Shown: positions 8,086-10,760 of the stretch, one piece after another
Layout of the letters: each line of letters opens with the position of its first letter
Position numbering within the stretch: position 1 is the first letter of the stretch
Assembly (NCBI GenBank): GCA_902511185.1
Contig: CABXEK010000008.1
Span: 1 to 35,606 of the forward strand
Length of the DNA stretch: 35,606 bases
Source: an uncultured Pelagibacteraceae bacterium
GTDB taxonomy: Bacteria > Pseudomonadota > Alphaproteobacteria > Pelagibacterales > Pelagibacteraceae
Direction: 5' to 3'
Notes under the pieces: model-generated
The model's database searches: none
Told to the model about the DNA's origin: nothing
Seen by the model: the letters and a program-made list of their open reading frames with translations, nothing else
Position numbers and translations under genes: made by a program

Positions 8086-8669
8086 TTTATAGTTTCCAAA
8101 TATTCTTTGATTTTTTTTACTGGCAATCCCATTATTGTTTCTTCGTCTCCATTAATTTCTGAAAATAAATTTCTTCCCTCACCTTCAATTTGATAAACAT
8201 TATAAGCATATAAATTTTCGTCCGATATTTTGGATAAATAGATCTTAAGATCTTCTATAAAAAAATTTTTCATTATTAAAGATGCTTTATCTGTAAAATT
8301 CCAAATCATAGAACCATTCCTTGATATACAAGCTGAGCTAATTAAATAATGTTTTTTACCATTAAGTCTTTTCAATATATCTAAAGCTTCATCTCTGCTT
8401 TCTGGTTTGGATATTAGCTGACCCTCTAAATCAATTACACTATCTGCACCCAAAACAATACTATCTTGAAATTTTAAGCTTACTTTATTAGCCTTAAGTT
8501 CAGCTAAATTCTTAGAAATAATTTCTGGGGTTACTTTTTCTTTCAATAAACTGTTTTTGACAACCTCCTCATCAACATTTGATGGAATTACTTCGTTGGG
8601 TATTTTATTCTTATCTAATATTTCTTTTCTAACCTTGCTCTTAGATGCAAGAATAATTTTATTTAACAT
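8082..8669 (-). CDS. maf: Maf-family nucleotide pyrophosphatase
   Basis: IILASKSKVRKEIL, VLGADSVIDLEGQLISKP, LNGKKHYLISSACI and EINGDEETIMGLPV motifs. Confidence 0.93.
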   Translation of the reverse strand: MLNKIILASKSKVRKEILDKNKIPNEVIPSNVDEEVVKNSLLKEKVTPEIISKNLAELKANKVSLKFQDSIVLGADSVIDLEGQLISKPESRDEALDILKRLNGKKHYLISSACISRNGSMIWNFTDKASLIMKNFFIEDLKIYLSKISDENLYAYNVYQIEGEGRNLFSEINGDEETIMGLPVKKIKEYLETIK

Positions 8670-9486
8670 TATTTAAATATATTTCATGAATTTTTATTAT
8701 CGATGCTGCAGTTTCTTCAACTGATTTTCTTGTAACATCTATAGAAGGCCACTTATATTTCTGAAAGGTTTTTTTTGCTTCATATATTTCTTTTTTTATG
8801 TTTTCAATACTTGTGTAGTTTTTGTTTTCTGTTTCTTTTAAAGAGTTCATTCTATTTCTTCTTAAATCTACCAAACGCTCAGGTTCTGTGTTTAAACCAA
8901 TTACACAGGTTAATTGTGGACTATCCTTTAACTTTTGTGGTAAAGAATTTTCGTTAACAAGTGGTATGTTCGATGTTTTAAAACCTTTGTTTGCTAAATA
9001 AATAGATGTGGGGGTTTTGCTCGTTCTGCTAACTCCAACCAATACTATGTCTGATTTTTCTATTTCATTACTTAGATTGCCATCGTCATGATTCATTGTG
9101 AATTGAATTGCTTCTATTCTATCATAATATTCATCGTTAAGAACATGTTGTCCGCTAGGTTCGTGTGAGGCTTTTTGATTAAGAATTTTAGAGAAATTTA
9201 AAATTAAATTTCCCAGAACACCAAAACAAGGAATTTTTTTTTCATTGCTTACATTTGATAAATATTTAGCCAACGCGTTGTCTACAATTGTATATAATAT
9301 TACAGAATTCTGATTTTTTTTAGCATCTTCTAGAATTTTGAGAATTTGATTTTCTGTTCTAGTAAATGAATAGGAGTGTATTTTATATTCTATATTTTTA
9401 AATTGTGCTTTTAATGCTAAAAAAATTCTATCTAAAGTTTCTCCAGTAGAATCTGAAATTAAATATATTTGATATGTATTATTCAT
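8659..9486 (-). CDS. ppsR: Pyruvate, phosphate dikinase regulatory protein family (PpsR/DUF299) kinase/phosphorylase
   Basis: YLISDSTGETLDRI, QFTMNHDDG, DIVLVGVSRTSKTPTSIYLANKGFKTSNIPLV motifs. Confidence 0.94.
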   Translation of the reverse strand: MNNTYQIYLISDSTGETLDRIFLALKAQFKNIEYKIHSYSFTRTENQILKILEDAKKNQNSVILYTIVDNALAKYLSNVSNEKKIPCFGVLGNLILNFSKILNQKASHEPSGQHVLNDEYYDRIEAIQFTMNHDDGNLSNEIEKSDIVLVGVSRTSKTPTSIYLANKGFKTSNIPLVNENSLPQKLKDSPQLTCVIGLNTEPERLVDLRRNRMNSLKETENKNYTSIENIKKEIYEAKKTFQKYKWPSIDVTRKSVEETAASIIKIHEIYLNNVK

Positions 9487-9758
9487 GAATAATTTGTTAA
9501 TAAATATGTATTATTTTAATATTATTAAACAATTTAAATATTATTGAATAATTGTTGTAAAATAAGGGTTTTATTAACATTAATAAACAGAATTAGAGAA
9601 TAATACATTAAATTTAATAAAATTATAAAAAGCTTCATTTTAAACAATTTTATTACCTCATAGATGTTATTAAAATGTTAATATAATGTTAATAATTAGT
9701 TATCTTCATTATTCACATTACATAATACTAATACAATAATTATATATATTATTTTAAT
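9487..9758. other. oriC: Putative chromosomal replication origin (oriC) in the ppsR/hemE intergenic gap
   Basis: Longest non-coding gap in the window, extremely AT-rich; flanked by leftward ppsR/maf and rightward hemE, the alphaproteobacterial oriC neighbourhood; TTATTCACA at 9709-9717 matches DnaA-box consensus TTWTNCACA; one-mismatch TTATTAACA boxes at 9572-9580 (+), 9495-9503 (-) and 9687-9695 (-). Confidence 0.72.
9665..9717. repeat. 11-bp-phased repeat array (TGTTATTAAAA/TGTTAATATAA/TGTTAATAATT/AGTTATCTTCA) running in phase into the DnaA box TTATTCACA
   Basis: TGTTA begins at 9665, 9676 and 9687, AGTTA at 9698, and TTATTCACA at 9709; every step is exactly 11 bp. Confidence 0.6.
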
Positions 9759-10760
9759 ATGACACCAATTCAGGAAGTAATAATTAATAAAAAAACTAAT
9801 ATAAATCCGATATGGATAATGAGACAGGCTGGTAGATATTTACCAGAATTTAGAGAAATAAGAAAATTAAATCCAGATTTTATAAAACTTTGTTTAAATA
9901 AAGACCTTTCCACAGAAATAACATTGCAGCCAATTAAAAGATTTAATTTAGATGCCGCTATAATTTTTTCAGATATTTTAATGTTACCCTATGGTTTAAA
10001 TCAAAAAGTAGAATTCAAAAAAAATGTTGGGCCAATTTTAGGTGAATTAGATATTAAAAAAATGTCACAATTAGATGAAATAGATTTTGTTGAAAAGATC
10101 TTTCCAGTTTATAAAGCAATTGAAAAAGTAAGTAAAAATAATCTTACTAAAAATATAAACACAATAGGTTTCGTTGGTGCGCCTTGGACCTTATTAGTTT
10201 ACATGATTAATCTTCAATCACCAAAAAAAGATTTAAAAAAAGACTTTTTTGAAGATAATTTTTTAATAAATAGAATTTTATTAATTTTGGAAAAATTTTT
10301 AAAGATTCATATTAAAAACCAAATTGAAAATGGTGCAAATATAATTCAAATATTTGATAGTTGGGCAGGTCTTTTAGGTGAAAAAGATTTGCCAAATTAC
10401 ATTTATACACCAACATTAAATTTAGTTAATTATACAAGAAGTTTAGGAGTGCCCGTTATCTGTTTTCCGAGGGAAATAAAAAATTATAAAGAATTTTGTG
10501 AAATTGTAAAACCTGACGCTGTTAGTATTGATTATAATATTGATCCAAAAAAAATATGTAATGATATTAAAATACCAATTCAGGGAGGACTTGACCCAAA
10601 AATTTTACTTGGTGATAAGGAAACAATAAAAAAAGAAGCAACAAAATATTTGGATATTTTTAAAAATCATCCATATATTTTTAATCTTGGACACGGTGTT
10701 TTGCCAGAAACAAAACCAGAGATGGTTGAGTATTTAGTAAATATTGTAAAAAATTATTAA
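9759..10760 (+). CDS. hemE: Uroporphyrinogen decarboxylase
   Basis: PIWIMRQAGRYLPEFR, IIFSDILMLPYGL, GFVGAPWTLLVYM, IFDSWAGLL, FNLGHGVLPETKPE motifs. Confidence 0.98.
   Translation: MTPIQEVIINKKTNINPIWIMRQAGRYLPEFREIRKLNPDFIKLCLNKDLSTEITLQPIKRFNLDAAIIFSDILMLPYGLNQKVEFKKNVGPILGELDIKKMSQLDEIDFVEKIFPVYKAIEKVSKNNLTKNINTIGFVGAPWTLLVYMINLQSPKKDLKKDFFEDNFLINRILLILEKFLKIHIKNQIENGANIIQIFDSWAGLLGEKDLPNYIYTPTLNLVNYTRSLGVPVICFPREIKNYKEFCEIVKPDAVSIDYNIDPKKICNDIKIPIQGGLDPKILLGDKETIKKEATKYLDIFKNHPYIFNLGHGVLPETKPEMVEYLVNIVKNY

Follow-up and report, generated by a model that had tools for sequence, protein, structure and literature searches.

The ppsR-hemE gap as a probable replication origin

The window analysed here, a stretch of 35,606 nucleotides from an uncultured Pelagibacteraceae bacterium (CABXEK010000008.1 of assembly GCA_902511185.1), is one of the 55 contigs of a 973,581-base assembly that is 75.6% complete. 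Judged by hemE, its closest relatives are Pelagibacter/Pelagibacteraceae (SAR11) records. SAR11 bacteria are among the most abundant cell types of the ocean, and in the literature searched we found no account of the anatomy of their origin. Between ppsR and hemE lies a very AT-rich intergenic gap, and downstream of hemE we noticed the gene for ferrochelatase, a UPF0093 (hemJ-type) gene and then rho. The genome encodes DnaA, with a DHTT motif in the C-terminal domain, as well as proteins of the IHF/HU family. The locus comprises the following features.

8659..9486, minus strand: ppsR / COG1806 (Kinase-PPPase), flanking gene (PF03618, 8.1e-90)
9487..9758, no strand: ppsR-hemE intergenic gap of 272 bp, probable oriC (origin synteny, conservation, GC-skew switch)
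9759..10760, plus strand: hemE, flanking gene (PF01208, 3e-85)

The origins of Caulobacter and Rickettsia are located between these same two genes, ppsR/COG1806 and hemE (PMC1914354). The marks of the hemE-COG1806 type of alphaproteobacterial origin were found in the SAR11 locus as well: the intergenic region between hemE and ppsR/COG1806 is conserved among relatives (261-285 bp across those used), the gap holds a cluster of six conserved DnaA boxes, and the GC skew switches nearby. In a complete genome of the same genus, the cumulative GC-skew minimum, taken from 20-kb samples and not continuously, falls at ~1.19-1.235 Mb and the gap at 1.262 Mb of 1.343 Mb, placing the two tens of kb apart.

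The spacing of the genes departs from this pattern at one locus (L079), where the matching ppsR piece lies 1.65 kb from hemE, compared with <300 bp elsewhere, owing to an insertion, a rearrangement or an assembly error. In the second family sampled within the order (f2, e.g. G062 and G064) the listed genomes gave no PF03618 match, hence the origin context there, if it is in this region, must differ.

Three DnaA boxes at an 11-bp period beside an anchor box

The initial annotation of the gap had listed TGTTA at 9665, 9676 and 9687, AGTTA at 9698, TTATTCACA at 9709-9717 and TTAA at 9678 and 9689, and all of these letters and coordinates were correct. The elements of the gap are given below; box scores are matches to TTATNCACA, with a maximum of 8, and offsets are relative to the anchor at 9709.

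9495..9503, minus strand: further conserved DnaA box, TTATTAACA on this strand (80% of 50 relatives match TTATNMACA at 7 or more of 8 positions)
9571..9579, plus strand: further conserved DnaA box, TTATTAACA (94% of 50 relatives match TTATNMACA at 7 or more of 8 positions)
9665..9673, minus strand: array box A1, TTAATAACA on this strand, two mismatches to TTATNCACA (offset -44, mean 6.24 of 8, 50 relatives)
9676..9684, minus strand: array box A2, ATATTAACA on this strand (offset -33, mean 6.14 of 8, 50 relatives)
9687..9695, minus strand: array box A3, TTATTAACA on this strand (offset -22, mean 6.10 of 8, 50 relatives)
9700..9708, plus strand: possible weak forward DnaA box abutting the anchor, TTATCTTCA (offset -9, mean 4.5 of 8)
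9709..9717, plus strand: anchor DnaA box TTATTCACA, a perfect TTATNCACA (mean 7.40 of 8; ACA 100% conserved)
9718..9722, no strand: 5-bp spacer, TTACA in the window (GGATA, AGACA, GGACC, TGACC and similar in relatives)
9723..9734, plus strand: four DnaA-trios, TAA-TAC-TAA-TAC (all four in 46 of 50 relatives)

A1-A3 share one orientation, on the minus strand and thus opposite to the anchor box on the plus strand, and are separated by 2 bp, which gives the 11-bp period. In the window A1 and A2 each carry two mismatches to the E. coli consensus. Three TGTTA units at 11 bp occur only once in the 974-kb assembly, in the ppsR-hemE gap. The shuffling control proposed in the initial annotation, run with dinucleotide composition kept, reproduced this arrangement in 0 of 5000 shuffled gap sequences. 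Three successive boxes on one strand (at most two mismatches each) at 11 bp appeared in 8 of the 5000, and 2.7% of them held some pentamer in three copies at this period. The single-sequence evidence for an array as against chance is thus moderate, and the case for the array rests on conservation.

Conservation of the array among SAR11 relatives

We aligned 104 distinct ppsR-hemE gaps, window included, and dereplicated them below 85% identity to 50 relatives (23 at 75% and 14 at 65%). Across the 50 relatives, reverse-strand box similarity peaks at -44, -33 and -22 only (reverse-strand background: mean match 2.55, sd 0.69, maximum 4.36), and the forward peak is at 0. The same three offsets remain at the top with only the 14 sequences of <65% identity, and the result is stable over 50, 23 and 14 sequences, indicating that it does not arise from repeated counting of close relatives. 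At least two array boxes are in register in 46 of the 50 relatives, where shuffles predict 0.095, and all three in 22, where shuffles predict none. The comparison with relatives that had been suggested for this gap therefore demonstrated that the three-box 11-bp register is conserved in SAR11 ppsR-hemE gaps. Indels between 9665 and 9735, a segment spanning array, anchor and trios, affect one of the 104 rows; such changes are seen in 63 rows for the 40-bp block 9607-9646 and in 87 rows for the 40-bp block 9647-9686, which takes in variable sequence to the left of the array.

These data bear on whether the array could be a periodicity that arose by chance in very AT-rich DNA, as the composition of the gap and the 2.7% of shuffles with some phased pentamer might suggest. 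The exact register in 50 dereplicated relatives, almost free of indels, and the single occurrence in the assembly argue against it; conservation refutes the chance reading, to which we give practically no credence.

The array had also been described as running in 11-bp steps into the anchor through a fourth unit, AGTTA at 9698. Three units and the anchor are real and conserved; the fourth is not a member of the array, as TGTTA with at most one mismatch is present at -11 in 1 of 50 relatives, compared with 30-37 for the true units.

Within the array boxes, position 5 is free to vary, conservation reaches 88-96% at positions 1, 2 and 7, and at position 6 A is commoner than C. The box variants among relatives (TTATTAACA, TTAATCACA, CTATCCACA and TTATAAACA) all fall within the DnaA-box family, and this substitution pattern points to DnaA, and not an unrelated regulator, as the probable binding protein. 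Of 7 genomes, 2 contained the strict two-box pattern TGTKNATAANNTGTKNATAA, in each case within the ppsR-hemE gap, showing that a strict consensus misses most members. The proposal that ordered DnaA sites stand beside a stronger anchor is thus well supported by sequence conservation in 50 relatives.

The phasing also places two TTAA half-sites, correctly spaced, at 9678-9692 (TTAA-N7-TTAA), and the initial annotation had considered that CtrA or a similar response regulator might bind there and compete with DnaA, as in Caulobacter. Both half-sites are retained in only 4 of the 50 relatives. Furthermore, no match to a CtrA model exceeded 141 bits in the window's own genome and 10 relatives at least 90% complete, compared with a cut-off of 350 bits that one control genome passes, and a ctrA ortholog is reported to be absent from Pelagibacter (PMC2877005). 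Neither component of a Caulobacter-type CtrA-controlled origin, a CtrA gene and a conserved TTAA-N7-TTAA, was therefore found in these genomes and gaps, and such competition is highly improbable.

Nowhere in the gap are indels more frequent than in 9607-9664, directly to the left of the nearly indel-free array.

A DnaA-trio core next to the anchor

The four DnaA-trios, overlooked in the initial annotation, begin five bases past the anchor, and their central A residues at +15, +18, +21 and +24 are conserved at 96-98%. In genome surveys for BUS elements, a DnaA box with at most two mismatches had to be accompanied by three or more NAN trios within 16 bp (PMC8287927); the anchor box and trios of the SAR11 core conform to this sequence rule.

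On the other side of the anchor, 9700-9708 is conserved as TAAT-C/T-A-C/T-C, with the TAAT core at 92-96% and sequences of the TAATCACC/TAATCATC type in relatives; its match to a DnaA box is moderate. This stretch may represent a weak forward box joined directly to the anchor, in the manner of the fused DnaA boxes reported for the origins of H. pylori and B. subtilis (PMC8235120). As a box, it would be inverted relative to A3 at a distance of 4 bp; in Thermotoga maritima, 4 bp is the measured optimum for inverted DnaA boxes (PMC10316083).

A sigma-70-like match (10 of 12) at 9712-9740 overlaps the anchor and trios, and hemE starts at 9759, so that the conserved stretch might be mainly the promoter and regulatory region of hemE, with transcription controlled there by DnaA or another factor. 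The number of promoter-like matches makes this a weak signal, nine compared with 6.0 expected. The supposed -10 element is poorly conserved, whereas the strongest conservation past the anchor follows a 3-bp period from +14 to +25, within what would be the promoter spacer, and the boxes retain the substitution spectra of DnaA boxes. We regard a mainly promoter-related role as unlikely; an additional, secondary one is possible.

Comparison with known origins

At E. coli oriC, a high-affinity box is accompanied by weak DnaA boxes of one orientation with 2 bp between them (11-bp period), and the arrays fill progressively from the strong site (PMC6070618). The SAR11 array resembles the low-affinity DnaA-ATP arrays beside R1 and R4 in its same-orientation 9-bp boxes spaced by 2 bp, their weakness being predicted from sequence. 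In E. coli, the left array and R1 point in the same direction (PMC10316083), whereas the SAR11 array is opposite to its anchor, and so does not share the orientation of the DUE-proximal strong box, and trios follow the anchor.

With the DnaA-box/DnaA-trio system of B. subtilis and H. pylori the SAR11 locus has in common a box, a 4-5 bp spacer and at least three NAN trios; it differs in that the fused upstream box is weak and a phased reverse array is added. In T. maritima, direct boxes 2 bp apart give maximal DnaA pairing, and box direction may vary while spacing and helical phasing matter (PMC10316083). The DnaA-oligomerizing region of this species, like SAR11, combines direct boxes 2 bp apart with mixed directions; the box sequence is different, and the 4-bp inverted junction in SAR11 depends on the weak 9700-9708 box. 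Cori of Caulobacter crescentus (hemE / CC0001) has the same flanking genes and likewise mixes stronger and weak DnaA boxes, but no CtrA was found in SAR11 and the types and order of the boxes differ.

The initial annotation did not recognise the layout as a described one. This holds in part, since 2-bp same-orientation spacing is known from E. coli and T. maritima, whereas the opposition of array and anchor looks like a lineage-specific variant.

A model for origin opening in SAR11

Together, we consider it very probable that these elements constitute the half of the SAR11 oriC on the unwinding side, made of a box/trio core and a weak array of three boxes 2 bp apart. It is probably assembled from known parts in a lineage-specific layout and not a new kind of system. 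From sequence we infer an active origin bound by DnaA, with array boxes of low affinity that depend on ATP and fill in a set order. DnaA would bind the anchor at 9709-9717 first, and perhaps the fused weak box at 9700-9708 as well. Anchor, 5-bp spacer and TAN trios would form a DnaA-box/DnaA-trio (BUS-type) opening core. Across A1-A3, DnaA protomers would stack on one face of the helix owing to the 11-bp period, and filling would be cooperative, in the order A3, A2, A1, because the 2-bp spacing lets neighbouring DnaA molecules join. The filled array may then help to deliver or stabilise the DnaA oligomer gripping the trios, which would extend onto the trio strand and open the AT-rich DNA toward hemE.

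More speculatively, SAR11 may have lost CtrA control, leaving a minimal, rigidly phased array of three boxes, opposite in orientation to a trio-type unwinding core, whose filling would time initiation as the sole switch of a streamlined cell; we put this forward tentatively, as an idea with perhaps some chance of being right. A compact origin with a strictly conserved array, a trio core and no CtrA offers a small test case for the roles of spacing and orientation in origin opening, of interest mainly to origin specialists, and peak-to-trough estimates of SAR11 growth rates could be anchored to it precisely.

Distribution beyond the SAR11 relatives

Loci from other genera of the Pelagibacteraceae show TAN-like repeats, a GC-containing 5-mer and a forward box with AACA at its end. 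Several also keep two boxes 11 bp apart, at -33 and -22, but some differ by one base or are unclear. The family-level profile blurs or understates the array, as automatic anchors look misplaced in five divergent members (L121, L122, L125, L127 and L129), some of which were read by eye. A three-box array of the SAR11 kind was found in none of 40 other alphaproteobacterial loci, a few of which have only a reverse box near -22. The array as a general alphaproteobacterial feature is thus unsupported; within this limited sample, it appears to be an elaboration of the SAR11 lineage. Runs of [TC]AN in other alphaproteobacteria are barely above shuffles (at least four in 26% vs 14%), and for this reason we do not claim class-wide trios.

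A separate element, ATCCCC, was noticed in the ppsR-hemE region of 20 of the 40 other alphaproteobacterial loci (among L139-L178). It is present in 16 of 31 gaps with a located hemE, compared with 1.7 expected by shuffling. In many it stands just upstream of the presumed anchor position, where the aligned place in SAR11 reads TAATCAYC, and in some of these loci (e.g. L140 and L141) the first base of a forward DnaA box lies seven bases past that of ATCCCC.
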